The notes below the pieces were generated by a model. It saw nothing but the letters and a program-made list of their open reading frames with translations. It did no database searches and had not been told where the DNA came from. From positions 1-64,000 of the forward strand of contig NZ_JAANHS010000013.1 in the NCBI RefSeq assembly GCF_011174775.1: a DNA stretch of 64,000 nt, read 5' to 3'. The DNA is from Rhodobacter calidifons (GTDB taxonomy: Bacteria; Pseudomonadota; Alphaproteobacteria; Rhodobacterales; Rhodobacteraceae). Below are positions 16,688 to 30,534 of this stretch, piece by piece; the stretch's first letter is position 1, and the number at the start of each line of letters is the position of its first letter. The position numbers were made by a program, and so were the translations under genes.

Positions 16688-17956
16688 TCAGTTCAGCCTG
16701 CGGCGCAGCGTTTCGGGCCGTCCCGCCAGGCGCATCCGGGCGTCGTTGCGCTGGCGGCTGGCCACCAGCCGGCCCTTCGACACCACGGCCAGCCGGTCCG
16801 GTCGCAGGCGCAAGGCTTCGACCGGGGTGCCTGCGTCCAGGACGACGAGACTGGCCAGGCAGCCGGGGTGCAGCCCATAGTCCGGCAGGCCCATGATCTG
16901 CGCATTGGTCTCGGTCACCATGGTGAAACAGCGCGCCATTTCAAGGGGATGGGTCATCTGCGCGACATGCAGGCCCATGAAGGCCACATCCAGCATGTCC
17001 GCCGTGCCAAGCGAATACCAGGGGTCCAGCACGCAGTCCTGTCCCCAGCCTACGGGGATGCCCAGGGCCTGCATCTCCTTCACCCGCGTCAGCCCCCGCC
17101 GCTTGGGGTAGCTGTCATGGCGGCCCTGCAACGTGATGTTGATCAAGGGGTTCGGGATCGCCGTCATCCCGCTTTCGGCGATCAGCGGCAAAAGCTTGGA
17201 CACATAGTAATTGTCCATCGAATGCATGCTGGTCAGATGGCTGCCCGCCGCCCGGCCCCCCAGCCCGTGCCGCGTCACCTCGCGCGCCATGGTTTCCACA
17301 TGGCGGCTCATCGGGTCGTCGGTCTCGTCGCAATGCACGTCCCACATCAGCCCGCGCTCGGCGGCGATCCGCGCCAGATCGCGCAGCGACTCGGCGCCTT
17401 CCTCCATCGTGCGCTCGAAATGCGGGATGCCGCCCACCACGTCGCAGCCCATGTCCAGCGCGCGCAGAAGGTTCTGCCGCCCGGTCTTCGTCCGGTAAAG
17501 CCCGTCCTGCGGGAAGGCCACCAGTTGCAGGTCCAGATAGGGCGCCACCCGACGCTTCACCTCCAGCATCGCCTCGACCCCGCGCAGATGGTCGGGCGTG
17601 GTATCGACATGGGTGCGGATCGCGAGTAACCCCATGCTGACCGCCCAGTCGCAGTAGCGCAGCGCGCGCTCCACCATCTCCTCCACCGTGGCGATCTCGC
17701 GCAGCTCTCCCCACAGCGCGATGCCTTCCAGCAGCGTCCCGCTCGCATTCACCCGCGGCAGGCCGTAGCTCAGCGTCGCGTCCATATGGAAATGCGGATC
17801 GACGAAGGGCGGGGACACCAGGTCTCCGGTCGCGTCGATCACGCGCGCCGCCTCGGCCTCCAGCTTGCCCACCGCCGCGATCCGGTCGCCCCTGATGCCG
17901 ATATCGGCCACCGTCCCGTCGGGCAGGGTGCCGCCCTTCACCAGCAGATCGAACAT
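16688..17956 (-). CDS. codA: Cytosine deaminase (CodA-type amidohydrolase)
   Basis: The 422-residue amidohydrolase has the CodA metal site: HFH (His55, His57), HCDE (His208, catalytic Glu211) and Asp307 in GWGQDCVLDPWY. The long stretch from VKRRVAPYLDLQLVAFPQ to NPLINITLQGRHDSYPKRRGLTRVKEM follows E. coli CodA closely. It deaminates cytosine to uracil, though related members act on isoguanine or other pyrimidines and purines. It starts directly after the permease stop and is the last gene of a nucleoside/base ABC transporter operon, which supports salvage of imported bases. Confidence 0.88.
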   Translation of the reverse strand: MFDLLVKGGTLPDGTVADIGIRGDRIAAVGKLEAEAARVIDATGDLVSPPFVDPHFHMDATLSYGLPRVNASGTLLEGIALWGELREIATVEEMVERALRYCDWAVSMGLLAIRTHVDTTPDHLRGVEAMLEVKRRVAPYLDLQLVAFPQDGLYRTKTGRQNLLRALDMGCDVVGGIPHFERTMEEGAESLRDLARIAAERGLMWDVHCDETDDPMSRHVETMAREVTRHGLGGRAAGSHLTSMHSMDNYYVSKLLPLIAESGMTAIPNPLINITLQGRHDSYPKRRGLTRVKEMQALGIPVGWGQDCVLDPWYSLGTADMLDVAFMGLHVAQMTHPLEMARCFTMVTETNAQIMGLPDYGLHPGCLASLVVLDAGTPVEALRLRPDRLAVVSKGRLVASRQRNDARMRLAGRPETLRRRLN

Positions 17957-18901
17957 CTACCGTTCTCCCTTGTTGTAGGGCACCATCAGCGCCGCCGGCA
18001 CCTCGGCCCGCCGCGACATCAGGATCAGTGCCAGGATCGACAGCAGGAAGGGCAGGGCCAGGAACAGCTGATAGGGCAGCACCGCCCCCAGCGCCGTCTG
18101 CTGCAACCGGATCTGAAGCGCGTCGAAGGCCGCGAACAGGATCGCCCCCAGCACCGCCTTGCCGGGCTTCCAGGCGCCGAAGACGACCAGCGCGATGCAG
18201 ATCCAGCCCCGCCCGTTCACCATCTCGAAGAAGAAGCTGGAGAAGGCCGACAGCGTCAGGAACGCGCCCCCCACCGCCATCAGCCCCGATCCCACGATCA
18301 CCGCCCCCATCCGCAGGCCGGTGACCGACAGCCCCTGCGCCTCGACCGCCGCCGGGTTCTCGCCCACCGCCCGCACCGCCAGCCCCAAAGGTGTGCGATA
18401 AAGCGTGAAGGCCACCAGCCCCGCCACCGCAAAGGCGAACCAGGTCAGCGCGGTCTGCGACAGCGCCGCCCCCAGCCAGGGCAGGTCGGACAGGCCGGGA
18501 ATGTAAAGCGGCTGGAAGGGTGTGATCTTCGGCGGGCTGGTCACCTGCGGCAGCATAAGCCGATAGGCGAAAGAGGCCGAGGCCGTGGCCAGCAGCGTCA
18601 CCCCCAACCCCACCACATGCTGCGACAGGCCGAAGGGCACGGTCAGCACCGAATGCAAGAGCCCGAACAGCATCCCCGCCGCCATCGCCACCGCGACCCC
18701 GCCCCAAAGCGGCATCCCCTGATAGACCGCCATCCAGCCGGTGAAGGCGCCGATGACCATGATCCCCTCGATCCCGAGGTTCAGCACGCCCGCGCGTTCG
18801 CAGATGAGTTCCCCCATGGTGGCCAGGATCAGCGGAGAGGCGATGCGGATCACCGCCGCCCAGAAACTGGCCGAAATGAGGATATCGACAATCTCGCTCA
18901 T
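17957..18901 (-). CDS. ABC transporter permease, nucleoside/simple-sugar type (second subunit)
   Basis: The 314-residue membrane protein of the BPD_transp_2 family (as in BmpA-NupABC systems) has the family stretch GELICERAGVLNLGIEGIMVIGA and about eight hydrophobic helices. Its ATG overlaps the preceding permease stop by four bases, which fixes the start; the frame stays open upstream to 19693 as a shadow of that permease gene. With the companion permease it forms the membrane channel. Confidence 0.93.
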   Translation of the reverse strand: MSEIVDILISASFWAAVIRIASPLILATMGELICERAGVLNLGIEGIMVIGAFTGWMAVYQGMPLWGGVAVAMAAGMLFGLLHSVLTVPFGLSQHVVGLGVTLLATASASFAYRLMLPQVTSPPKITPFQPLYIPGLSDLPWLGAALSQTALTWFAFAVAGLVAFTLYRTPLGLAVRAVGENPAAVEAQGLSVTGLRMGAVIVGSGLMAVGGAFLTLSAFSSFFFEMVNGRGWICIALVVFGAWKPGKAVLGAILFAAFDALQIRLQQTALGAVLPYQLFLALPFLLSILALILMSRRAEVPAALMVPYNKGER

Positions 18902-19941
18902 CCCCGCACCACCCGCACCCTGGTGAGAAGGATCGCCAGCACCATGAACAGCAGTGCCGTCGCCAGCAGCATGTCGGCGATATAGGTCGGCACCCCCGCC
19001 GCCCGGCTCATCGCGTCCGACCCGACGAAAATCCCCGCCACGAAGATCGCCGTCACCACCACGCCCAGGGGATGCAAGAGCGCCAGCATCGCCACGATGA
19101 TCCCCGTGTAGCCGAAGCCAGGCGACAGGTCCGACGACAGATGCCCCTTCAGCCCGGCCACCTCGGACCACCCGGCCAGCGCGGCCAGCCCCCCGGACAA
19201 AAGGGCGGTTTTCACCAGCACCGCGTTGACCGGCATGCCTGCGAACCGCGCGGCCTCCGGGTTCTGCCCAACGGCGCGGATTTCGAAGCCCAGCGTGGTA
19301 CGGGTCTGGATCACCCAGACCGCGACCGCCGCGATGATCGCCAGCGCAAAGCCCCAGTGCAGCCGCAAGCCCTCCACGATGCGCGGCAGGCGGGCCTCGG
19401 GGATCAGGGCAGGGGACTTCGGCCAGCCCATGCCCATCGGGTCCTTCATCGGGCCTTCCAGCAGGTAGCTGACGAAGAGAAGCATGATGAAGTTCAGCAG
19501 CAGGGTCGTCACCACCTCGTCCACCCCCAGCCGGGTTTTCAGCAGCACCGGCCCCAGCAGCAGCGCCGCCCCCGCCAGCATCGCGGCCCCCGCCGAGACG
19601 GGCAGGACCAGCGGGCTTCCCAGCGCGCCGGTGCCCAGCACCACGGCCATGATTGCGCCCGCGTAAAGCTGCGCCTCCGCACCGATGTTCCACAGCTTTG
19701 CCCGGAAGGCCACGGCCACCGCCAGCCCGGTGAAGATCAGCGGCGTCGCGCGATTCAGGGTTTCGAGAATCGCCAGCTTCGACCCCAGCGCCCCCCGCGC
19801 GATCTGGCCCAGCACCGCGAAAGGGTTCGCCCCCGCGATCAGCGCCAGCAGCATGGCGACTCCCAGCGTGGCGAGCAGCGCCAGCGCCGGCAGCCCAATC
19901 TTGCGCGCCGCCGAGGGGTTGGGGATCGCCTCAAGCCGCAT
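18898..19941 (-). CDS. ABC transporter permease, nucleoside/simple-sugar type (first subunit)
   Basis: The 347-residue polytopic protein has FRAKLWNIGAEAQLYAGAIMA, the signature of the larger permease of BMP-type importers. This is followed by GVDEVVTTLLLNFIMLLFVSYLLEGP. It overlaps the ATPase gene by eleven bases and the next permease gene by four. Confidence 0.93.
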   Translation of the reverse strand: MRLEAIPNPSAARKIGLPALALLATLGVAMLLALIAGANPFAVLGQIARGALGSKLAILETLNRATPLIFTGLAVAVAFRAKLWNIGAEAQLYAGAIMAVVLGTGALGSPLVLPVSAGAAMLAGAALLLGPVLLKTRLGVDEVVTTLLLNFIMLLFVSYLLEGPMKDPMGMGWPKSPALIPEARLPRIVEGLRLHWGFALAIIAAVAVWVIQTRTTLGFEIRAVGQNPEAARFAGMPVNAVLVKTALLSGGLAALAGWSEVAGLKGHLSSDLSPGFGYTGIIVAMLALLHPLGVVVTAIFVAGIFVGSDAMSRAAGVPTYIADMLLATALLFMVLAILLTRVRVVRG

Positions 19942-21463
19942 GCGCTTCCTCGAACTTCTGCCCTGCCATCCACAGGCCCAATTCCGCCGCCGTCATCGTC
20001 CCACGCGCAAAGGCCGGGGAAAGACGGCCTTGAGAAATCACATGAACGACGTCAGACAAGCTCATGATTTCATCCAGGTCTTCCGAAATCAGCAACACCG
20101 CCGCCCCCCGGTCGCGCGCCGCGATCAGCTGCGCCTGCACATAGGCAATCGCGCCCACATCCAGCCCCCGCACCGGCTGGTTGGCCAGGATGATCTCCGG
20201 CCCCGGCGCCAGTGCGCGGCCCAGGATCAGCTTCTGCATGTTCCCGCCCGAGAGCAGCCTGATCCGCGTCTCCGGCCCCGGACAGCGCACGTCATAGCCC
20301 TTGATGATCCCTTCCGCAAAGGCCCGCGCCGCCCGCCAGTCCATCCAGCCGCGCCGCGAGAATCGCGTGCGATACCCCTCCAGCACCGCATTCTCGGTCA
20401 GGTCAAAGTCCGCAATCGACCCCTGATGGTGCCGGTCCTCCGGGATCCGCGCCACGCCGCGCGCCAAGGCCTCGCGCGGGGTCCAGGTCTCCGGCTCCTG
20501 CCCATGCAGCCACAGGTGCCCCGCGGCGGGCAGGGCCAGCCCGCCCACGATCTCGGCCAGCGCCGCCTGCCCGTTGCCCGAGACCCCGGCAAGCCCGGTG
20601 ATCTGCCCCGCCCGCAGCTCCAGCGTCACCGCCTTCAGTCCCGGCGCCGCGCCGCGGTCGGGCGTCGAGACTTGGTCCAGCCGCATCAGCACCGCCCCCG
20701 GCACCCGCGCCTCGGCGCGCGGCAGGGACAGTTCCCCCCCGACCATCAGCGCCGCCAGCGCGGCCTTGTCGGTCGCATGGGTATCCACTTCGCCCACCAC
20801 CCGGCCATGGCGCAGCACCACGCAACGGTCGGCAATCGCCATCACCTCGTGCAGCTTGTGGCTGATGAAGATCACCGACAGCCCCCGCGCCGTCGCCTTC
20901 CGCAAAGTGGCAAACAGCGCCTCCGCCTCCTGCGGGGTCAACACCGCCGTCGGCTCGTCCAGGATCAGGATCCGCGCGTCGCGGTAAAGCGCCTTCAGGA
21001 TTTCCACCCGCTGGCGTTCGCCCACCGACAGGCGGCCCACCCTGGCATCGGGATCGACCGCCAGCCCGAAGTCCCGCGACAGCCGCGCCACCTTCTCCCG
21101 CGCGCCCGCACGCGACCGAGACCACAGCCCCTCGGTCCCCAGACGGATGTTCTCCAGCACCGTCAGGTTGCCCGCCAGGCTGAAATGCTGGTGCACCATC
21201 CCCACCCCCGCCGCCAGCGCCGCGCGCGGGTTGCCGGGGGGCAGGGGGCGGCCGAACACCTCGACCGACCCCGCATCGGCCACATAGTGACCGAAAAGGA
21301 TGTTCATCAGCGTGGTCTTGCCCGCGCCGTTTTCCCCAAGCAGCGCCACCACCTCGCCGCGCCGCAGGGTCAGCGACACGGCGTCGTTGGCCGTCAGCGC
21401 GCCGAAGCGCCTGGTGATCCGGTCAAGGCGAAGAACGACTTCCGCCCCGCTGTCCCGGCTCAC
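19931..21463 (-). CDS. ABC transporter ATPase with two nucleotide-binding domains
   Basis: The 510-residue protein is a tandem ATPase of the sugar/nucleoside importer class. The first half has Walker A GENGAGKTT, a signature LSVGERQRVEI and Walker B LILDEPTAV. The second half has lost Walker A (GVSGNGQAAL), keeps LSGGNMQKLIL and has a weak Walker B (IILANQPVRGLD). One degenerate site is usual for this class. I start at the GTG at 21463 because it overlaps the binding-protein stop (GTGA); the longer frame to 21700 is a shadow of the bmp gene. Confidence 0.92.
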   Translation of the reverse strand: MSRDSGAEVVLRLDRITRRFGALTANDAVSLTLRRGEVVALLGENGAGKTTLMNILFGHYVADAGSVEVFGRPLPPGNPRAALAAGVGMVHQHFSLAGNLTVLENIRLGTEGLWSRSRAGAREKVARLSRDFGLAVDPDARVGRLSVGERQRVEILKALYRDARILILDEPTAVLTPQEAEALFATLRKATARGLSVIFISHKLHEVMAIADRCVVLRHGRVVGEVDTHATDKAALAALMVGGELSLPRAEARVPGAVLMRLDQVSTPDRGAAPGLKAVTLELRAGQITGLAGVSGNGQAALAEIVGGLALPAAGHLWLHGQEPETWTPREALARGVARIPEDRHHQGSIADFDLTENAVLEGYRTRFSRRGWMDWRAARAFAEGIIKGYDVRCPGPETRIRLLSGGNMQKLILGRALAPGPEIILANQPVRGLDVGAIAYVQAQLIAARDRGAAVLLISEDLDEIMSLSDVVHVISQGRLSPAFARGTMTAAELGLWMAGQKFEEAHAA

Positions 21464-22473
21464 GACGATTTCGGCTCGCTGTCGTCGATGGTCACGGTAA
21501 AGCTGCCGTCGCGGATCGCCTTTTCCTTCTCGGCCACCAGAGCCTTGATCTCGGCGGGAACCTTGTCCTCGAAGGTGCCCAGCGGTGCCAGCGAACAGCC
21601 GCCCTCGCGCATGAAGGAATAGGTGCCGTAATTCGCCGCCTTGAACGTCCCGGCCTGCACCGCAGCGACGGCGGCGTTCAGCGTGGGCTCGAAATGCCAC
21701 AGGGCCGAGGTGACGACCGTCTCCGGGTAATCCGGTTGCGTGTCGATCACGTTGCCGATGGCCAGAACGCCCCGCTCCTTGGCCGCGTCCGACACGCCGA
21801 AACGTTCAGCATACATCAGGTCCGCGCCCCCGTCGATCATGGCAAAGGCGGTCTCCTTGGCCTTGGGCGGATCGAACCAGGACCCGATGAAGCTGACCTG
21901 GAATTTCGTCTCCGGCTTCACCTCGCGAACGCCGGCCATGAAGGCGTTCATCAGCCGGTTGACCTCCGGTATCGGGAAGCCGCCGACCATGCCGATATTG
22001 CCCTTGGTCATGCCGCCCGCGACGATGCCCGAGAGATAAGCCGCGTCCTGGATGTAGTTGTCGAAGACCGCGAGGTTGGGGTTCGCGGCCTCGTCCGGCA
22101 TGAAGGACGACCCCAGCAGGAAGGCCACATCCGGGTATTCCGCGCAGACCTCGCGCGCCTCGGCCTCGGCGCCGAAGATCTCGCCCACGATCAGCTTGAC
22201 CCCCGCCTCGCAATATTCGCGCATCACGCGGGGATAGTCGGTGTTCGCCACATTTTCGGTGTAGGTGTAATCCACCGTCCCCGCCGCCTTCAGCGCCTCG
22301 GCGGCGATGTGGATGCGGCTGACCCATTGCTGTTCCACCGGCACCGTGTAGATGCCCGCCATCCTGATCGGCTCTTGTGCCAGGCCAGCGCGCGGCAGGT
22401 TCGCCGCCACCGTTGCCGCCGCCCCACCCAGAAGCAGCCCGCGCCGCGATACCGTGAAGGTTCCCGTTGTCAT
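21460..22473 (-). CDS. BMP-family nucleoside-binding periplasmic protein
   Basis: The 337-residue protein has a twin-arginine signal (SRRGLLLGG, residues 9-17) with Ala-rich cleavage region near 32. Export is therefore probably by Tat, whose genes are at the window's left end. The mature part is of the basic-membrane-protein family: REVCAEYPDVAFLLGSSF, NYIQDAAYLSGIVAGGMTKG and GADLMYAERFG. Members bind nucleosides or purine bases. It is the first gene of the five-gene operon ending in codA. Confidence 0.92.
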   Translation of the reverse strand: MTTGTFTVSRRGLLLGGAAATVAANLPRAGLAQEPIRMAGIYTVPVEQQWVSRIHIAAEALKAAGTVDYTYTENVANTDYPRVMREYCEAGVKLIVGEIFGAEAEAREVCAEYPDVAFLLGSSFMPDEAANPNLAVFDNYIQDAAYLSGIVAGGMTKGNIGMVGGFPIPEVNRLMNAFMAGVREVKPETKFQVSFIGSWFDPPKAKETAFAMIDGGADLMYAERFGVSDAAKERGVLAIGNVIDTQPDYPETVVTSALWHFEPTLNAAVAAVQAGTFKAANYGTYSFMREGGCSLAPLGTFEDKVPAEIKALVAEKEKAIRDGSFTVTIDDSEPKSS

Positions 22474-22510
22474 CTGATGCCTATCCCTGTTGCTGGTCTT
22501 CGGTTGGAAT

Positions 22511-22528
22511 TTTTACCAAGAGGTAAAA
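22511..22528. promoter_or_regulatory. Inverted repeat between bmp and gntR
   Basis: TTTTACCAAGAGGTAAAA has perfect seven-base arms around AAGA. It lies 38 bases ahead of the bmp gene (-) and about 200 bases ahead of the divergent GntR gene (+). The GGTAA/TTACC arms fit the kind of site bound by FCD-type GntR proteins, so it is a candidate operator for the neighbouring regulator. Confidence 0.6.
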
Positions 22529-22724
22529 CTCTTTCCCGATTCGTTACAAGCGGCAGTTTCCCCGGTCAAATCGCGCGGCGCGCCTGCGACCGCGCCGGTA
22601 GAAATTGCCGGAAAATATGGCATTTCATGGCCTTGCCGGTCAATGCGAAAGCATTGTCTGAAGTCGGGACGGGCATCGACGCCGCGCCCGCCGCATGGCA
22701 GGGTCGCCAGGAAGGAGGTTCGCC

Positions 22725-23390
22725 ATGTCCATTCCCTTCGCCGGTCCGCAGATCCCGACCCTCGTCCAGCACATCCTGGACCGGATCGACCTTGGCCAGC
22801 TGAACCCGGGCGACCTTCTGGACGAGGCCGAACTTTCGGCGACCTACGGCGTCTCCCGCACGCCGGTGCGCGAGGCGATCCTTTATCTCGAAGCCCTCGG
22901 CCTCGTCCGCCGCCTGCCGCGCAAGGGGGCCGCGATCTTCCGGCCCACGCTGGAGGAATTTCTTGCCATCATCGAGGTCCATGCCAAGCTGGAAGGCCAG
23001 GCCGCGGGCCTTGCTGCCCGCCGCCTGTCGCGGCAGGGGGCCGAGGATCTGGAAGCCGCCGTCCGCGCCTGCGAGGCGCAGGCCGCCGCCAATCCGACCG
23101 GCGACCCGGACGGCTATTACCAGTTGAACCTGCGGTTTCATGCCTGCGTGGCCACCGCCTCGGGCAATGGCGTGCTGCTGGAAAGCCTGAAGACCAACGC
23201 CCGCCGCCTGCTGGCCTACTACCGCGCCCGCTACCGCTTTCAGGGTGCGATCCCGAAATCCGCCGCCGAACACCGGGCCATCGCGCGCCTCATCACCGAC
23301 CGCGATTCGGCGGGGGCCGAGGCGATGATGCAGGCCCATGTCCAGTTCGATCAGGTGACGGCGATGGACCTTCTGGCCGCGCTCTCCTAG
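22725..23390 (+). CDS. GntR-family regulator (FadR/FCD subfamily)
   Basis: The 221-residue protein has an N-terminal winged helix (LDEAELSATYGVSRTPVREAILYLEALGLV) and an FCD ligand domain from about 85 with HAKLEGQAAGLAARRLS. A strong AAGGAGG lies seven bases ahead of the ATG at 22725, which I prefer to the in-frame ATG at 22695. It is divergent from the bmp-ABC-codA operon and probably controls it. Its 3' end overlaps that of the converging amidotransferase gene within a CTAG. Confidence 0.9.
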   Translation: MSIPFAGPQIPTLVQHILDRIDLGQLNPGDLLDEAELSATYGVSRTPVREAILYLEALGLVRRLPRKGAAIFRPTLEEFLAIIEVHAKLEGQAAGLAARRLSRQGAEDLEAAVRACEAQAAANPTGDPDGYYQLNLRFHACVATASGNGVLLESLKTNARRLLAYYRARYRFQGAIPKSAAEHRAIARLITDRDSAGAEAMMQAHVQFDQVTAMDLLAALS

Positions 23391-24094
23391 CCCTTCGCCT
23401 GTTCGAAGAACCGCGCGATCCATTCGGCAAAGCGCGGCCCTTCGGTTCTCTGCGAGAGTGAGTCCCTTGCGGCCCGCCCCACCTCATCCGGGAGCTTCGG
23501 TGCAAATTCCTCGACCAGCGCGGCCAGGAAATCCAGCGTCATCTCAGGGTGATACTGCGTGGCAAAGACCCGGTTGCCGATCCGGTAGCACGCCGCTGGA
23601 CACCCCGGCGTGACCCCCACCACCTCCGCGCCGGGGGGCAGCGCCGTCACCTGCTCGCCATGCGCCGCCGCCAGCCGGAACGATGCCACGGGCTCCATCC
23701 AGGGGGCAGGGCAGGTGACCCGGGTCTCCGCCGTCCCCAGCACGAAGGCCCCCGGATTAGGCCCCACCGTTCCCCCCAGCGCCTTGGCGATCGCCTGATG
23801 CCCGAAACAGGCCCCGGCCAGCGGAACCCCCGCCGCAAAACCGTCGCGGATCAGCTGCATCAGCCGGTCGATCCAGGCCTCCCCGTCATGCACCGAGGCC
23901 GGGCTGCCCCCGATCAGCGCCCCGTCAAACCCTTGCAGATCATCGGGAAACTCACCTTTCGGCAGATCGAAGGCCGTGACCCGCCACCCCGGCCGCACCC
24001 CCTGCAACAGGGCCTTGAACTTCTCCACATCGCGCGGATGGCGGGCGGCGAAATCGCTGTCATCGGTGTTCGTGGCCAGCACCGCGATATGCAT
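23387..24094 (-). CDS. Class I glutamine amidotransferase-like protein
   Basis: The 235-residue protein has the class I triad: Cys in LAGACFGHQ, and His and Glu in TQYHPEMT. An oxyanion-type IGGSPAS stretch is also present. It is a stand-alone GuaA-type amidotransferase domain. Related proteins hydrolyse gamma-glutamyl amides in polyamine and aniline routes. It is divergent from the P450-ligase-ferredoxin operon with 62 AT-rich bases between, suggesting shared control and a role in removing or transferring a gamma-glutamyl group. I start at 24094; the frame runs further upstream with poor composition. Confidence 0.82.
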   Translation of the reverse strand: MHIAVLATNTDDSDFAARHPRDVEKFKALLQGVRPGWRVTAFDLPKGEFPDDLQGFDGALIGGSPASVHDGEAWIDRLMQLIRDGFAAGVPLAGACFGHQAIAKALGGTVGPNPGAFVLGTAETRVTCPAPWMEPVASFRLAAAHGEQVTALPPGAEVVGVTPGCPAACYRIGNRVFATQYHPEMTLDFLAALVEEFAPKLPDEVGRAARDSLSQRTEGPRFAEWIARFFEQAKG

Positions 24095-24156
24095 GAGATT
24101 TCCCTTTACATATTTAACATGCGTATCATTATGCAAATCGCAGGAGGGAGCAACCC
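24095..24156. promoter_or_regulatory. Divergent promoter region of the P450 operon and amidotransferase gene
   Basis: This is an AT-rich spot in a GC-rich area. An imperfect inverted repeat, GCGTATCATTATGC, lies at 24121-24134, and a strong GGAGGGAG is centred about ten bases before the P450 ATG. No exact -35/-10 pair is clear. It probably holds both promoters and a regulator site. Confidence 0.5.
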
Positions 24157-25413
24157 ATGACAGTCTGGACACCCACCGACGACGGTTACGCCGACCTGAC
24201 CAGCCACGACACTTTCCTGAACGGCGCCCCCCACAACACCTTCGCACGCCTCCGCCGCGAGGACCCCTGCCACTGGACCCCATACCCGCAAGGCCAGGGC
24301 TTCTGGTCCCTGACCCGGCACGAGGACATCCTGCGCCTGAACGGCCAGCCCGACCTCCTGTCCTCCGCCCGCGGCATCCGTATGGAGGATCAGAGCTACG
24401 AGGAATACCTCGCCCGCCGCACCTTCCAGGAAACCGACCCGCCGGACCACATGCTGACCCGGGTGAAGGTCGCCAAGGCCTTCTCGAAACCCGTCATCGC
24501 CACCTTCGAACAGGCGATCCGCGACCTCTGCACCACGATCCTCGACGCGGCCCTGCCCAGGGAAACCTTCGACGCCACGAGGGAAATCGCGCGCGAACTG
24601 CCGATGCGGATGCTCGGCCGCATCGTGGGCCTGCCGGACGAAGACCTCCCCTGGCTGGTCGAGAAGGGCGACGCGCTGATCGCCAACACCGACCCCGACT
24701 TCACGCCCCACGTCCTTGACAAACTCACCACCGACGAATTCCGCATGATGCCCTTCAACTCTCCGGCAGGCGCGGAACTCTTCGTCTACGCCAAGGACCT
24801 GATGGCCCGCAAAGCGGCCATCGGCGACACGAACGGCGTCCTCCACATGATCCTGCAACCCGGCCACGACGGCCAGGTCATGCCCGAACACGAATTCCGC
24901 AACTTCTTCTGCCTGATCGTCGCCGCCGGGAACGACACCACGCGCTACTCCATCGCCGCCGGGATCCAGGCGCTCGCCCACCAGCCCGAGCTTCTCCCCC
25001 TCATCCAGTCCGGCGCCGTCGATGACACCATGGCCGACGAGATCATCCGCTGGGCCAGCCCCACCTCCTACTTCCGCCGCACCGCCACCCGCGACTTCGA
25101 CCTGCACGGCAAGACCATCCGCGCGGGCGACAAGGTGCTCTACTGGTTCGCCTCCGCCAACCGCGACGAGGCCGTGTTCGACCACCCCTTCCGCGTCAAC
25201 CTCGCCCGCAACCCGAACCGGCACCTCGCCTTCGGGCAGGGTGGGCCGCACCTCTGCCTCGGCATGTGGCTCGCCCGCCTCGAAGTCCGCGTCCTGTTCC
25301 AGGAACTCGCCAAACGCATCACATCCATCGAACCGGCCGGAGAGCAGAAATTCCTGCGCTCGAACTTCGTCGCCGGATTGAAAAGCCTGCCCGTCCGCGT
25401 GACGCTGCAATAA
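24157..25413 (+). CDS. Cytochrome P450
   Basis: The 418-residue soluble P450 has AGNDTT in the I helix (257-262), EIIR in the K helix (295-298) and the heme loop FGQGGPHLCLG with Cys367 as thiolate ligand. It lacks a membrane anchor, as expected of a bacterial class I P450 needing a ferredoxin. A ferredoxin gene lies two genes downstream. The substrate is unknown; neighbours (glutamine-synthetase-like ligase, amidotransferase) suggest a gamma-glutamylated amine. Confidence 0.95.
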   Translation: MTVWTPTDDGYADLTSHDTFLNGAPHNTFARLRREDPCHWTPYPQGQGFWSLTRHEDILRLNGQPDLLSSARGIRMEDQSYEEYLARRTFQETDPPDHMLTRVKVAKAFSKPVIATFEQAIRDLCTTILDAALPRETFDATREIARELPMRMLGRIVGLPDEDLPWLVEKGDALIANTDPDFTPHVLDKLTTDEFRMMPFNSPAGAELFVYAKDLMARKAAIGDTNGVLHMILQPGHDGQVMPEHEFRNFFCLIVAAGNDTTRYSIAAGIQALAHQPELLPLIQSGAVDDTMADEIIRWASPTSYFRRTATRDFDLHGKTIRAGDKVLYWFASANRDEAVFDHPFRVNLARNPNRHLAFGQGGPHLCLGMWLARLEVRVLFQELAKRITSIEPAGEQKFLRSNFVAGLKSLPVRVTLQ

Positions 25414-25429
25414 ACAGGGGGAGACCGAA

Positions 25430-26722
25430 ATGCCCGACCGCCTGCGCGCGATGTTCTGCGACCACCTCAGCCTGATGCGCGGCAAATACCTGCCCGCGGC
25501 CAAGCTGAAATCCGACGGCACCCGCATGGCGCGGCCCACCTTTTCCGTCCACTGGGACAAGGACCTCATCCTCGACGCGCCCCACACCAGGTGCCGCGAA
25601 GGCATCCCGGACATGGAGCTGCGCTGGGAGGCCTCCGACATCCGCGACGGCTGGGAGCCTGACACCAAGGTCGTCACCGGCGACCTCTACGACAGCGAGG
25701 GCGAACGCATCCCCCTCTGCCCCCGCTCTGCCCTGAAACGCGCCGTTGCCGCCTGGGAAGCCAGGGGCCTCACCCCCAAGGTCGGCGTCGAACTGGAAGC
25801 CTTCGCCTTCGAGATCGCCGAGGACGGCTCCATCGCCCCCATGCACGCCCCCGGCGGCATCGTCTACGGCACCGGCCCCTTCGCCGACCCCGCCGGTTTC
25901 ACCGATGCGATCTGGCTAAGGGCCGAGGAAGCAGGCTTCCGCCTCGACCTCATCACCGCCGAATACGACACGCCGCAGTTCGAATTCACCCTCGCCTACG
26001 ACACCGCCGTCAAGGCCGTGGACGAGATGGTCCTCTTCCGCCAGATGGCCCGCGAAGTGGCCCTCGAACACGGCATCCTGTTGACCTTCCTGCCGAAACC
26101 GATCCTGGAAAAGGGCGGCTCGGGCCTGCATTTCAACCTCTCCTTCGCCGCCAAGGCGGGCAAGAACGCCCTGATGACCGGCCCCAAGGGCGGCCCCGAC
26201 CACATGAACGACCTTGCGAAAGGCGTCGTCGCGGGCTGGCTTCATCACCACAAGGGCCTTGCCGGGCTGCTGGCCCCCACGGTCGGCAGCTACCTGCGCC
26301 TGCAACCCGCCTCGATGTCGGGCTACTGGTGCAACTGGGGCGGCGACCATCGCGGCGTCACGGTTCGGGTGTCGGAAGAGGGCGGCCCCAAGACCCGCCT
26401 CGAACACCGCATGGCCGACGCCAGCTGCAACCCCTACACCGCGCTTGCGGCCCTGTTGCAGGCCGGGCTTCTCGGCGTCGAAAAGGCCTACAATCTCCCC
26501 GCGCCCGAGGCCGGCGACGGCTTCGACCGCACCGACGCAGGCTATGGCGTGGCAGGCTCACTGTCCGAGGCGATGGACGATCTTGAGGCCGACAAGGCCC
26601 TCGCCGCCGCTCTCGGCCCGGAGCTTGTCGAACACCACCTCTTCATGAAGCGGATCGAGGTGACCAAGACCGAGGGCCTCGAAGGCGCAGCCTTGCGCAA
26701 CTATTACATCTGGTATGTCTGA
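25430..26722 (+). CDS. Glutamine-synthetase-family ligase (probable gamma-glutamyl-amine synthetase)
   Basis: The 430-residue protein is of the glutamine synthetase fold. It has the N-terminal beta-grasp part, VGVELEAFAFE (metal Glu), GSGLHFNLSF (the family's H-x-N ATP/Glu site), RLQPASMSGYWCNWGGDHRG and RLEHRMADASCNPYTALAALL. It differs from housekeeping GlnA and resembles the side branch of PuuA, GMAS and anilide synthetases, which join glutamate to amines. It sits between P450 and ferredoxin with gaps of 16 and 10 bases, so it very likely belongs to one pathway with them. Confidence 0.85.
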   Translation: MPDRLRAMFCDHLSLMRGKYLPAAKLKSDGTRMARPTFSVHWDKDLILDAPHTRCREGIPDMELRWEASDIRDGWEPDTKVVTGDLYDSEGERIPLCPRSALKRAVAAWEARGLTPKVGVELEAFAFEIAEDGSIAPMHAPGGIVYGTGPFADPAGFTDAIWLRAEEAGFRLDLITAEYDTPQFEFTLAYDTAVKAVDEMVLFRQMAREVALEHGILLTFLPKPILEKGGSGLHFNLSFAAKAGKNALMTGPKGGPDHMNDLAKGVVAGWLHHHKGLAGLLAPTVGSYLRLQPASMSGYWCNWGGDHRGVTVRVSEEGGPKTRLEHRMADASCNPYTALAALLQAGLLGVEKAYNLPAPEAGDGFDRTDAGYGVAGSLSEAMDDLEADKALAAALGPELVEHHLFMKRIEVTKTEGLEGAALRNYYIWYV

Positions 26723-26732
26723 GGGTCCGCCA

Positions 26733-27059
26733 ATGACTTTGACACGGAAAGCCACCTGGAAACTGGCCGATGGCCGCGCGATCACGCTCGACGTGCCCGA
26801 GGGCCAAAGCCTGATGGAGGCCGCCACCCGGCACGGCGTCCCCGGCATCATCGGCGAATGCGGCGGCTCGATGTCCTGCGCCACCTGCCATGTCGTCGTC
26901 GCCCCCGACTGGGCCGAACGGGCAGGGACCCCCAGCGCCTTCGAGGAAGACATGCTCGACATCACCGAGGCCGGCCGCCAACCCACCTCGCGCCTCTCCT
27001 GCCAGATCAGGATGACTGCCGCGTTGGACGGGATCGTCCTGTCGGTGCCCGAGGCTTGA
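26733..27059 (+). CDS. 2Fe-2S ferredoxin, adrenodoxin type
   Basis: The 108-residue protein has cluster cysteines Cys43, Cys49, Cys52 and Cys90 in the C-x5-C-x2-C...C pattern of vertebrate-type/putidaredoxin-like ferredoxins. The start at 26733 has GAGGG seven bases ahead. An in-frame ATG at 26715 inside the ligase gene is possible but lacks a ribosome site. It most likely carries electrons to the P450 at 24157; no ferredoxin reductase gene is in the window. Confidence 0.93.
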   Translation: MTLTRKATWKLADGRAITLDVPEGQSLMEAATRHGVPGIIGECGGSMSCATCHVVVAPDWAERAGTPSAFEEDMLDITEAGRQPTSRLSCQIRMTAALDGIVLSVPEA

Positions 27060-27070
27060 GGAAAACGAAA

Positions 27071-27101
27071 TTTCTGCAAGATTCCCGATTCTTTGCAGAA
27101 A
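27071..27101. promoter_or_regulatory. Inverted repeat ahead of the inositol-phosphatase-family gene
   Basis: Perfect nine-base arms TTTCTGCAA and TTGCAGAAA are separated by 13 bases that contain GATTC twice. It lies 52-82 bases before the 27154 start. It may be an operator or a weak terminator after the ferredoxin gene; no T-run follows on the plus strand, which favours an operator. Confidence 0.5.
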
Positions 27102-27153
27102 AATCGTGACTCTGGTGGTGTAAGGCTTCCGTCCCCGTCTCCATGAGAAGCCG

Positions 27154-27912
27154 ATGATCCTGGACACCCTCACCCCGATCCTGACCGATGCCGCCGCCCA
27201 GTCGCTGGCCTTCTTCAACAGCCTCGCCGCCCGCCGGATCGACGCGAAATCCCCCGGCGATCTCGTCTCCGACGCCGACCGCGCCGTGGAGCAGACCCTC
27301 CGCCAGCGCCTGACCGAAGCCTTCCCCGACTGCACCATCCTGGGCGAGGAATACGGCGGTGCGCCCACCGACCGCTTCTGGGCCATCGACCCGATCGACG
27401 GCACCGCGAATTTCCTCTCCGGCCTGCCGTTCTGGACCGTCTCCCTCGGCCTGATGGACCACGGCCAGCCCGTCGCGGGCGGGATCATCGCCCCCGCGCT
27501 GGGCCTCTCCGCCATCGGCGCCCCCGGCCAGCCCCTGCGCCTGACCGGCTTCACCCCCGGCTCCCGCCCTGCCGACCCGCCCTGCATCGGCCTCGGTCGC
27601 AACCCCCGCTGGCCCGCCGCCGACCGCCACGCGGTGGAGGCCGCCGCCGATGCCCGGAACCTCGGCGTGCGCCTCCTCGGCTCCTGCGCGCTCTCGCTGA
27701 TGCTCGTCGCCACCGGCCGCCTGAAAGGCTATGTCGAGGCAAACGTCGGCGGCCTCTGGGACTGCGCCCGCGGCCTCGCCCTCTGCCGCGCCGCAGGCCT
27801 GCCGACCGCGTTCAAGCTCCACGAGGACGGCACCGTCGATATCCTCGCAGGCTTGGTTTTCGGCATCGCCCAGGCCGCCGGATGGCGCGGCGAAATCCTT
27901 GACGACAGGTAA
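27154..27912 (+). CDS. Inositol-monophosphatase-family phosphatase
   Basis: The 252-residue protein has the metal-binding motifs of the family: GEEYGG, WAIDPIDGTANFLSGLPFW and GLWDCARGLALC. Members remove phosphate from inositol, histidinol, PAP or sugars. Typical length is 250-270, so it is complete. It follows the ferredoxin gene after 94 bases with a possible operator, so it may be a separate unit. The substrate cannot be told from the sequence; a HisN-like or inositol role are both possible. Confidence 0.88.
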   Translation: MILDTLTPILTDAAAQSLAFFNSLAARRIDAKSPGDLVSDADRAVEQTLRQRLTEAFPDCTILGEEYGGAPTDRFWAIDPIDGTANFLSGLPFWTVSLGLMDHGQPVAGGIIAPALGLSAIGAPGQPLRLTGFTPGSRPADPPCIGLGRNPRWPAADRHAVEAAADARNLGVRLLGSCALSLMLVATGRLKGYVEANVGGLWDCARGLALCRAAGLPTAFKLHEDGTVDILAGLVFGIAQAAGWRGEILDDR

Positions 27913-27969
27913 ACGCCCGCAGCCAAGCCCTTGATTTCAAACCGCACGAAAAAGCGCCGCGCGCGGCGC
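27912..27969. repeat. Dispersed intergenic repeat, copy A
   Basis: This ~58-base element is also found at 39172-39230. Shared parts are AACGCCC, then CAAGCC with C or T before TTGATTTC, then AAAAA and a 16-base GC palindrome (27954-27969, half-site GCGCCGCG). Read on the minus strand, the palindrome is followed by TTTTT and looks like a terminator, but no minus-strand gene lies nearby. Confidence 0.7.
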
Positions 27970-28029
27970 TTGCAGCCGCCGCGCCCCGCTGGCACTCTCG
28001 CCCCGGAAGGCCGGAGGGGACCACAGAAC

Positions 28030-30000
28030 ATGACCCGCAACACCACCCATGGGGGCTACTTCCTCTACCATTCCATCGGCATCTACCCCGGAAAAGAGGA
28101 AGACCTGGCCCGCGCCATGGCCGAGTTCTCCGAAATCTGGGCCGCCCCGAACGACAAGCAGTGGGGGTATGTCCTGCGCAAGCGGCAGGACTTCATCGAC
28201 CGCTGGCGGCGGCTGATCGGGGTGCCGAAGGGCAGCCTGACCACGGTGGACAACGTGACCGAGGGCCTCCAGAAGATCCTCCGCGCCCTGCCCGAAGGCT
28301 ATCTCAAGGGCAAGCGCGTCCTCGCCGCCGCCGACTGCTTCCCCTCGCTCCACTTCCTCCTTCAGGGCCTCGCCCCGAAGATGGGCTTCACCGTGACCAC
28401 CGTCCCCCTCTCCGCAGGCCGCGCCTGGGTGGAGACCGAGGATTTTCTGGCCCACTGGACCCCCGACGTGGGCCTCGCCCTTCTGACCTGGGTCACCTCG
28501 ATCGGCTCGTCGAAGATGGACTACCCCGCGCTGGTCGCCCATGGTCGCGCGATGGGCAGCCTGATGGTCGCCGACATCACCCAAGGCGCGGGCCTGATGC
28601 CCTTCGACGCCCTGAACCCGCGCGTCGATTTCGTCGTCTCGACCAGCCTGAAATGGCTCTGCGGCACCCCCGGCGCGGGCATCCTTTACGCCGACAAGGA
28701 CCTTATCCCGAGCCTGACGCCAGAGGGCCGCGGCTGGTTTTCCCAGAACAATCCCTTCTCCTGGGACCTGGACAAGTTCGACTACGCCCCCGACATCCGC
28801 CGCTTCGACACCGGCACGCCGGGCTCGGTCGCGGCCCTGGCCTCGCTGCCGGCGCTGGAGTGGTTCTCCAGACAGGACCAGACCGAGGTCGCCGCCCACA
28901 ACCGCCGCCTGGTGGACCGGGTGATCGAACGGGCCGACCGTCTGGGCCTCCCCCTCCATTCCCCGCGCGACGCGGACAAACGGGGTGGCGCGGTGATGAT
29001 CCGCATGCCCGACAAGGCCGAGGCCGCGGCCTGCGTCGGCGCCCTGGGGGTCGAGGGCTATTCGGTCGATTGCCGCGGCCCGATCCTGCGCATGTCGCCC
29101 GGTTTCGTGACCGAGGAACGCGCGGTGGACGCCGTCTTCGATCTGGTCGAAGAGGTGATGGCCCGCCGCAAACGGCGCTTCGCGGGGCAGGGGGAGCGGA
29201 GCGGAAACCCGACCGAAACCCTTGCCGCGCTTGCGTCGGGCCTCGCTTCGGGCAGCGTGACAGTCGTGGACCTGACCGCCGAGCTTGGCCCGAACACACC
29301 GATCCTGCGCCTGCCCGAGGATCTGGCGCGGAACACGCCGAAAGTCGCGATCCACCGGATCAGCGAATACGACAAGGACGGCCCGTTCTGGGCCTGGAAC
29401 TGGCTGGAACTGGGCGAACATTCCGGCACCCATTTCGACGCGCCGCACCACTGGCTGTCGGGCAAGGACCACCCGGACGGCTTCACCGACACCCTCGATG
29501 TCCAGCGCCTGATCGCACCCGCCAACGTGATCGACTGCTCGAAGGAAGCCGCCGCCGACCCGGATTTCCTGCTGACCGCCGACCATGTGAAGGCCTGGGA
29601 GGCACAGCATGGGCAGATCGGCCCCGGCGAATGGGTGCTGATGCGCACCGACTGGGACAGGCGATCCCATGACGAGGAACTGTTCCTGAACGAGGACCCG
29701 GACCCCCACGAGGACGGATCCCATTCTCCCGGCCCCTCGACCGACTGCATCGACTATCTCCTGGGCAAGGGCATCGTCGGCTGGGGCACGCAGTGCATCG
29801 GGACGGATGCGGGGATGGCCGGCAAGTTCAGCCCGCCCTTCCCGGCGCACAACTTCCTGCACCGGGACAACTGCTTTGGCCTGGCCAGCCTGTGCAACCT
29901 CGACCAGCTGCCGCCCAAGGGCGCGCTGCTGATCGTGACGCCGCTGAAGATCAGGAACGGGACGGGCTCTCCCATCCGGGCGCTGGCGCTGGTGGCCTGA
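28030..30000 (+). CDS. Kynureninase-like PLP enzyme fused to a KynB-type cyclase/formamidase domain
   Basis: The 656-residue protein has two parts. Residues 1 to about 375 form a class V PLP fold: TVDNVTEGL phosphate site, Asp182 in ADITQGAG and Schiff-base Lys208 in STSLKWLCGTPGAG. Kynureninase is the closest match I recognise. Residues about 410-656 form a cyclase-superfamily domain with HSGTHFDAPHHW (464-475), the metal motif of bacterial kynurenine formamidase KynB. Such a fusion would hydrolyse N-formylkynurenine and then cleave kynurenine to anthranilate and alanine, or act on analogues. GGAGGGG lies about ten bases ahead of the ATG at 28030; the frame is open further upstream. An HpaR-type regulator gene follows. 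Confidence 0.82.
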   Translation: MTRNTTHGGYFLYHSIGIYPGKEEDLARAMAEFSEIWAAPNDKQWGYVLRKRQDFIDRWRRLIGVPKGSLTTVDNVTEGLQKILRALPEGYLKGKRVLAAADCFPSLHFLLQGLAPKMGFTVTTVPLSAGRAWVETEDFLAHWTPDVGLALLTWVTSIGSSKMDYPALVAHGRAMGSLMVADITQGAGLMPFDALNPRVDFVVSTSLKWLCGTPGAGILYADKDLIPSLTPEGRGWFSQNNPFSWDLDKFDYAPDIRRFDTGTPGSVAALASLPALEWFSRQDQTEVAAHNRRLVDRVIERADRLGLPLHSPRDADKRGGAVMIRMPDKAEAAACVGALGVEGYSVDCRGPILRMSPGFVTEERAVDAVFDLVEEVMARRKRRFAGQGERSGNPTETLAALASGLASGSVTVVDLTAELGPNTPILRLPEDLARNTPKVAIHRISEYDKDGPFWAWNWLELGEHSGTHFDAPHHWLSGKDHPDGFTDTLDVQRLIAPANVIDCSKEAAADPDFLLTADHVKAWEAQHGQIGPGEWVLMRTDWDRRSHDEELFLNEDPDPHEDGSHSPGPSTDCIDYLLGKGIVGWGTQCIGTDAGMAGKFSPPFPAHNFLHRDNCFGLASLCNLDQLPPKGALLIVTPLKIRNGTGSPIRALALVA

Positions 30001-30054: not shown

Positions 30055-30534
30055 ATGACCGACACGACCAGCTTCCGCCAGACCCGCCGCTCGTTGCCCA
30101 TCGCGCTTTTGCGGGCGCGGGAAACGGTGATGGGGCCGTTCCGCGACATGCTGGCCAGTTCCGGCGTCAACGAACAGAAGTGGCGCGTCCTGCGCGTGTT
30201 GCAGGAACGCGGGCCGCTGGAGCTGAGCCAGGTCGCCGCCGAGGCGGTGCTCCTGCTGTCCAGTCTGACGCGGATGGTCGGGCCGATGGTCGAGGAAGGC
30301 CTGATCTCGCGGATGACCCCGCCCGAGGATCGCCGCAAGTCGGTGATCGCGATCACGCCGGCGGGGCTTGCGCTGGTCAACGCCCATGCGGCGGCAAGTG
30401 CCGCGATTCTGGGCCGGATCGAAGCCGAATTCGGGCGCGAGCGGCTGGAAACGCTGCTCGACCTGCTGGAGGACCTCCAGAAGCTGGACCTGCGCGGGAC
30501 AGCGCCGCAGAGCGGGCACCGGACCCGCCGCTAG
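30055..30534 (+). CDS. hpaR: MarR-family regulator, HpaR type
   Basis: The 159-residue winged-helix protein opens with RRSLPIALLRARETVM and has NEQKWRVLRVL, LLLSSLTRMVGPMVEEGLI and EDRRKSVIAITPAG. This N-terminal pattern is typical of HpaR, the repressor of homoprotocatechuate degradation, and of its aromatic-responsive relatives. It lies 54 bases after the kynureninase-cyclase gene and is likely its regulator. The gene symbol reflects family likeness only, because no hpa genes are in the window. Confidence 0.82.
   Translation: MTDTTSFRQTRRSLPIALLRARETVMGPFRDMLASSGVNEQKWRVLRVLQERGPLELSQVAAEAVLLLSSLTRMVGPMVEEGLISRMTPPEDRRKSVIAITPAGLALVNAHAAASAAILGRIEAEFGRERLETLLDLLEDLQKLDLRGTAPQSGHRTRR

Follow-up and report, generated by a model that had tools for sequence, protein, structure and literature searches.

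A conserved cytochrome P450 and glutamine-synthetase-like ligase cassette in Rhodobacter calidifons and its relatives: a candidate gamma-glutamyl-amide monooxygenase module

A 64,000-nucleotide stretch of the Rhodobacter calidifons genome (contig NZ_JAANHS010000013.1, positions 1 to 64,000; here called the window) carries a cassette of four genes, in which a class I glutamine amidotransferase-like hydrolase (GATase) diverges from a cytochrome P450, a glutamine-synthetase-like (GS) ligase and a 2Fe-2S ferredoxin. Gene order is conserved among related loci, the ligase differs from true glutamine synthetase at two presumed ammonium-site residues, and the P450 keeps company with genes of homoprotocatechuate (hpa) catabolism and with decarboxylases of the aromatic amino acid type. 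We consider it highly probable that the cassette serves some pathway in which a gamma-glutamyl-amine is oxidised by the P450. The narrower reading, in which the cassette is a gamma-glutamyl-amide monooxygenase module and the amine it handles is aromatic, is suggested by the same sequence comparisons at about even odds.

Results

Layout and conservation of the cassette

An earlier note on this DNA had called the four genes, their divergent layout and gaps of 10-16 bases between the co-directional ones; Pfam matches and intergenic distances bear this out. The GATase and P450 starts diverge with 62 bp between them, 16 bp separate the P450 from the GS gene, and 10 bp the GS from the ferredoxin gene. 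The features are as follows.

23387-24094, minus strand: class I glutamine amidotransferase-like hydrolase (GATase); PF00117, 61.2 bits
24095-24156, no strand: putative divergent promoter/operator region, 62 bp; conserved element CTTTACATATTTA at 24104-24116
24157-25413, plus strand: cytochrome P450; PF00067, 56.8 bits
25430-26722, plus strand: GS-like ligase; PF00120, 250 bits
26733-27059, plus strand: 2Fe-2S ferredoxin; PF00111; a longer in-frame start is possible at 26715
22695-23390, plus strand: GntR/FCD-family regulator, probable local regulator; Pfam GntR and FCD
30055-30534, plus strand: HpaR-type MarR regulator, a neighbour outside the cassette; TIGR02337 HpaR, 124.7 bits (cut-off 121.2)

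Each protein carries recognizable motifs: GACFGHQ and HPE in the GATase, AGNDTT, EIIR and the haem loop FGQGGPHLCLG in the P450, and CGGSMSCATC in the ferredoxin. The closest solved relative of the P450 is CYP125MRCA (1.2e-93). The ferredoxin is likely the electron donor to the P450, which we propose as the oxidant of a gamma-glutamyl-amine, with the GATase as the proposed remover of the gamma-glutamyl group. The GntR/FCD regulator gene meets the GATase gene tail to tail.

A search with the P450 against one genome per species returned 169 related stretches. The 80 most similar in the P450 make up a first set that leans to close relatives (titles mostly Rhodobacterales, with a few others such as Oricola and Ahrensia). 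Adjacency was scored by profile searches, and only at loci with enough contig left to hold the neighbouring gene. A divergent GATase gene lies beside the P450 gene in 77 of 77 testable loci, and a co-directional GS gene follows it in 77 of 77; 65 of 77 have a ferredoxin gene downstream of GS, and 57 of 73 have a GntR gene upstream. The earlier note had allowed that the four genes might be neighbours in this genome only; they are adjacent in dozens of genomes, and the conserved order of the first set speaks against chance adjacency. A second set held 28 loci of our own choosing, from searched genomes and one plasmid, with possible overlap of species with the first. The GS gene adjoins the P450 gene in 25 of these 28, the other three being two contig ends and locus L121. 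A GATase gene is present in 19 of the 28, in several on the strand of the P450 (the misses at L108, L112 and L128 are contig ends), and a ferredoxin gene in eight, including one 7 kb off and one on the other strand. Adjacency of GS and P450 across both sets thus marks this pair as the core of the cassette, to which GATase and ferredoxin are variable additions outside the window's lineage. Of 248 genomes that sample the genera of the family, 50 have the cassette P450; among 385 sampled in the class, 10 genomes belonging to six further families have it as well.

The divergent region shows conservation of its own. Among 79 divergent regions, 53 contain an exact copy of the element TTTACATATTTA. 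A fuller motif of two parts, which we built, is found in 45 of the 79, the window not among them, and in none of 50 letter shuffles. When one mismatch at most was allowed, the site in the window was the only match in its own genome; a control with the pattern reversed likewise gave one match.

Three loci with other arrangements were also seen. Ruegeria sp. TM1040 (L084:16430-17176) has an FkbM-family methyltransferase gene after GS, where many loci carry the ferredoxin, and L064 has a relative of it. On a plasmid of Sagittula stellata (L090:4920-8227), GS-like, GATase and P450 genes stand in a row near ring-hydroxylating dioxygenase genes, with a ligase of separate lineage. A Mesorhizobium loti plasmid (L089:8974-16376) holds genes for a P450, a 2Fe-2S protein, a permease, a GS-like protein and a gamma-glutamyl-hydrolase-like protein close together.

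The ligase differs from glutamine synthetase

In a maximum-likelihood tree of 38 rows (TdnQ and AtdA1 are not among them), the window ligase falls in a clade of 23 rows with 100/100 support, apart from E. coli GlnA, PuuA, IpuC and NpaA1 and from L139, the GlnA relative encoded elsewhere in its own genome, which pairs with E. coli GlnA. Grouping with true GlnA, the other outcome on which the earlier note had staked its reading, was thus not what the tree returned. The order among the amide-ligase clades is poorly supported and some branches are long, leaving these forks open, but PuuA, IpuC and NpaA1 all stand apart from GlnA.

The alignment adds residue-level differences. At Y179 and E327 of E. 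coli GlnA, which we take to be ammonium-site residues, all 23 clade members have V, and M or L, respectively; both positions are also changed in PuuA, IpuC and NpaA1. All 23 members retain the residues that are presumably catalytic (E129, E131, E212, E220, H269, R321, R339, R344, E357 and R359). D50 of GlnA, which falls in an alignment gap as it does for L139, was not used. The ligase therefore has the sequence trait expected of the GS-like gamma-glutamyl-amide ligases (GoaS of PMC11335346), namely a GS fold with catalytic residues kept and the ammonium site altered. These substitutions are consistent with an organic amine and a hydrophobic pocket, without proving it, and the protein is likely a gamma-glutamyl-amide ligase serving a P450. 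The separate clade and the changed Y179 and E327 positions speak against its identity as true GlnA, which was set aside.

One could still suppose that the ligase assimilates nitrogen as a glutamine synthetase and that the P450 is unconnected with glutamylation, since the best-scoring solved relatives of the ligase carry the name glutamine synthetase. Against this stand its place in the tree, the residue changes, the presence of L139 elsewhere in the genome and the constant pairing of the ligase with the P450, and we regard it as the least credible of the explanations considered here.

Association with aromatic catabolism

Across the 248 genomes of the family, a homoprotocatechuate dioxygenase (HpaD) is encoded in 43 of 50 genomes with the P450 and in 39 of 198 without it (including HpaD matches of 44-45% identity in G039 and G143), with a Fisher P of 2.8e-18 from a test that, like the others here, ignores shared ancestry. 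Relatives of DOPA and tyrosine decarboxylases, counted down to 50% identity and so perhaps of mixed specificity, occur in 45 of 50 against 71 of 198 (1.5e-12), and HmgA in 47 of 50 against 120 of 198 (1.3e-6). The control gene pcaG shows no association (28 of 50 against 114 of 198; P = 0.87). As the P450 goes with hpaD, the decarboxylase and hmgA but not with pcaG, general catabolic richness is not the cause.

Physical linkage points the same way, in gene neighbourhoods called with a simple open-reading-frame caller that misses genes. Gene clusters around the 80 loci of the first set include those of hpa, of homogentisate catabolism (hmgA/fahA), paa and a PF00282 decarboxylase whose nearest solved relatives are DOPA and tyrosine decarboxylases; at least one counted aromatic gene lies near 35 of the 58 full-length loci, in a tally that excludes aldehyde dehydrogenase matches as ambiguous. 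A class III aminotransferase cluster is represented in 35 of the 80 loci, and one of its members is nearest to a solved omega-transaminase. In 9 of the 43 genomes having both, HpaD and the P450 lie no more than 30 kb apart, and the decarboxylase is as close to the P450 in 9 of 32 genomes examined (74 of 117 decarboxylase places used); in 29 of 50, decarboxylase and HpaD are separated by 3 kb at most. Taken together, these patterns suggest that the substrates are probably aromatic amines derived from tyrosine-like amino acids, with amines of the tyramine and dopamine type as the best inference, a link to tyrosine- and phenylacetate-type catabolism that goes beyond the earlier account.

Individual gene runs make the connection more concrete. 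L104, from a different family of Alphaproteobacteria, has a run of nine genes on the same strand, in the order aldehyde dehydrogenase, LigB-type extradiol dioxygenase, FAH, acetoacetate-decarboxylase-family protein, aromatic amino acid decarboxylase, P450, GS, ferredoxin and a ferredoxin-reductase-like protein. The decarboxylase matches a DOPA decarboxylase (PDB 7xin, 1.6e-218), the dioxygenase and the aldehyde dehydrogenase match TIGR02298 and TIGR02299, both below cut-off, and the ferredoxin is 61% identical to that of the window. Decarboxylase, P450, ligase and ferredoxin genes stand in one run in three genomes of this family; at L103 and L105, which belong to it, the decarboxylase gene adjoins that of the P450. 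At L118 and L120 the cassette shares one run with HpaF, an HpaE-like aldehyde dehydrogenase, HpaD, HpaG and HpaH, and in Novosphingobium the order is P450, GS, aldehyde dehydrogenase, with a LigB-type dioxygenase nearby. An Embleya locus, the source of nine of the ten proteins in one Pfam scan, gave GS and no further pathway gene; aldehyde-dehydrogenase-like matches lie some 8-11 kb away. R. calidifons itself has HpaF-E-D-G-H on contig C3, with HpaD and HpaE above their curated cut-offs, and a decarboxylase relative (61%) on contig C57.

The Hpa pathway is classically fed by the HpaBC hydroxylase. No match to HpaB at E<=1e-30 was found in the R. calidifons genome, and HpaB was found in 12 of the 80 genomes used in the HpaD comparison, from which G039 and G143 were excluded. 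A plain role of the P450 as a stand-in for HpaB was rejected, since the expected complementarity is absent among these genomes.

Other genes of the window

The minus-strand genes at 16688-22473 look like those for an amidohydrolase and for components of an ABC transporter, with a BMP/PnrA-type binding protein at 21460-22473. Between 42000 and 56000 a run of genes looks, by eye, like phage head and tail genes, possibly of a gene transfer agent.

Discussion

Proposed mechanism

The simplest account of these observations retains what the earlier note had proposed: glutamylation, oxidation by the P450 and deglutamylation remain the likeliest logic for the encoded proteins. We infer each reaction, which amine is used, where it is oxidised and in which sequence the steps run, as follows. 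The GS-like ligase would join glutamate to a primary arylethylamine, at best guess tyramine or a close relative, supplied by decarboxylation of an aromatic amino acid or by uptake. The P450, reduced through the 2Fe-2S ferredoxin by a reductase encoded elsewhere, would oxidise the tagged amine, and the simplest such oxidation would be ring 3-hydroxylation of gamma-glutamyl-tyramine to gamma-glutamyl-dopamine. The amidotransferase-like hydrolase would then free glutamate and the oxidised amine, which a transaminase and an aldehyde dehydrogenase could convert to homoprotocatechuate (3,4-dihydroxyphenylacetate) for degradation by the Hpa meta-cleavage enzymes. That the amine is aromatic we think somewhat better than an even bet; ring hydroxylation of a tyramine-type amine is put forward tentatively, at rather less than that.

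Several findings weigh against the aromatic-amine module or against parts of it. As noted, the association tests disregard shared ancestry, and the decarboxylases counted may differ in specificity. No counted aromatic gene lies within 9 kb of 23 of the 58 full-length loci, and at nine loci, mostly of this kind, no common neighbour was found by eye. Among the 80 HpaD genomes, HpaB is present in 6 of 43 with the P450 and in 6 of 37 without it, and 31 have neither. In R. calidifons the hpa genes and the decarboxylase are on separate contigs, and no hpa genes neighbour the decarboxylase within the stretch taken. At L121 the absence of GS is real, with genes for P450 and GATase present, 20 of the 28 second-set loci lack a ferredoxin gene, and no GATase gene was found beside the cassette at L103-L106, L120 or the Novosphingobium locus L085. 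At L106, of the same family as L103-L105, no decarboxylase match was found. Moreover, should DOPA be the substrate of the L104 decarboxylase, no ring hydroxylation would be required.

Alternative readings

Some of these points would suit a different outcome of the same tagging, in which the P450 attacks the carbon next to the nitrogen and releases L-glutamine and an arylacetaldehyde, so that ligase and P450 together act as a masked amine oxidase and the GATase may serve as a glutaminase or be dispensable. We know of no precedent for a P450 freeing glutamine and an aldehyde in this way. The loci just listed without a GATase gene fit this chemistry, as do the aldehyde dehydrogenase gene directly 3' of GS in Novosphingobium, the aldehyde dehydrogenase in the L104 run, where no transaminase or amine oxidase was found among the genes scanned, and the L104 decarboxylase itself, nearest to DOPA decarboxylase, whose product would already have a catechol ring. 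Yet the GATase is kept at every testable locus of the window's lineage, the L104 aldehyde dehydrogenase, HpaE-like below cut-off, may serve ring cleavage only, and the isopropylamine (Ipu) precedent yields a hydroxylated amide in the part of PMC6776027 drawn on here. We regard this alternative as unlikely, and its corollary, that neither amine oxidase nor transaminase takes part in deaminating aromatic amines, whose nitrogen would go directly into glutamine, as marginally more so.

Slightly less plausible again is a pathway of the Ipu kind that acts on an aliphatic or heterocyclic amine (of the isopropylamine, morpholine or piperidine type), with the aromatic neighbours reflecting mere catabolic clustering. 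Ipu follows the same logic, the loci without counted aromatic genes would be expected, and an excerpt of PMC9477822 places a GS gene near PipA/MorA-like P450s in Gulosibacter; however, the co-occurrence with hpaD, the decarboxylase and hmgA, and not with pcaG, speaks against it, as do the divergent P450 and ligase and the lack of a BLAST match between the ferredoxins. An amine derived from tryptophan, such as kynuramine, anthranilate or the like, appears very improbable. It is brought to mind by the gene that follows the cassette at 27931-30000, which encodes a fusion of a kynureninase-like (PF00266) and a cyclase/kynurenine-formamidase-like (PF04199) protein and recurs at L004-L007, L013 and L051. 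This fusion is strongly matched in only 6 of the 80 loci (four more matches are weak and partial, at 29-34%), and hpa genes also follow at L005, L006, L013 and L051.

Relation to known systems

The preferred reading, a gamma-glutamyl-amide monooxygenase module, has its nearest analogy in the Ipu pathway rather than in the aniline clusters. Plasmid pTC1 of Paenarthrobacter aurescens TC1 carries an amidotransferase, a P450, a ferredoxin, a ferredoxin reductase and IpuC in one stretch. According to an excerpt of PMC6776027, IpuC forms gamma-glutamyl-isopropylamide, the P450 system converts this to gamma-glutamyl-L-alaninol, and release of L-alaninol by an amidotransferase is postulated. Because Ipu is described there, the scheme of tagging, oxidising and untagging is known chemistry, and the earlier note erred in stating that no pathway of this make-up had been described: Ipu has the same logic, built from other subfamilies of parts. 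The pathways of P. aurescens TC1 and Pseudomonas sp. KIE171 are like the window in the kinds of genes brought together and in the order glutamylate, P450-oxidise, deglutamylate. The sequences differ: the ligases are 30% identical and in separate clades, and the P450s are 25% identical. The pTC1 amidotransferase beside the P450 (10065) resembles PuuD in its CRGMQ motif, and BLAST at E 1e-3 did not match it to the GATase; a second one (10062), about 3 kb off, does match (26%, 8e-14). The 68-residue pTC1 ferredoxin has no match to that of the window at the same threshold, and the window cassette lacks the ferredoxin reductase of the Ipu cluster. Membership in the Ipu pathway was rejected, as the ligase clade, the low identities and the missing BLAST matches show that the enzymes are not orthologous.

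In the aniline and 1-naphthylamine clusters a Rieske dioxygenase stands where the window has a P450; none was found among the eight proteins scanned at 21460-30000. These clusters (TdnQ, AtdA1, NpaA1) share tagging by a GS-like ligase, but in the tree the window ligase is separate from the fragment of NpaA1. NpaA1 and AtdA1 are described in an excerpt of PMC11335346 as GS-like ligases that tag aromatic amines before oxidation. E. coli PuuA and PuuD likewise pair a GS-like gamma-glutamyl-amine ligase with a gamma-glutamyl hydrolase, without a P450 in that E. coli stretch; PuuA is 28% identical to the window ligase and in another clade, and a BLAST comparison of PuuD with the GATase gave no match at E 1e-3. 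The piperidine and morpholine (PipA/MorA) clusters, with P450, ferredoxin, reductase and a GS gene nearby, are likened here by description only: in Gulosibacter these genes have consecutive or near locus tags, and the GS is read as nitrogen metabolism, as far as the excerpt of PMC9477822 goes. The Hpa meta-cleavage pathway, present in the R. calidifons genome, is linked to the cassette in several others. Methylofuran biosynthesis was considered and set aside, MyfA and MyfB being predicted ATP-grasp proteins in the available part of PMC8141765. No paper describing the cassette was found in the open-licence literature, judged by titles and the openings of abstracts, which is weak evidence.

Implications

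Measured against that literature, the strategy is known, and what is new is the assembly, the ligase clade of its own and the tie to tyrosine-type aromatic catabolism. If the proposed function is correct, common aquatic bacteria would possess a P450 route for aromatic biogenic amines of the tyramine and dopamine type, and a strategy of tagging, oxidising and untagging would have been assembled from different enzyme subfamilies in different lineages. Orphan P450s and proteins annotated only as glutamine synthetase family would gain a testable function, and P450s that oxidise amines may quite generally use glutamate tags as a handle.

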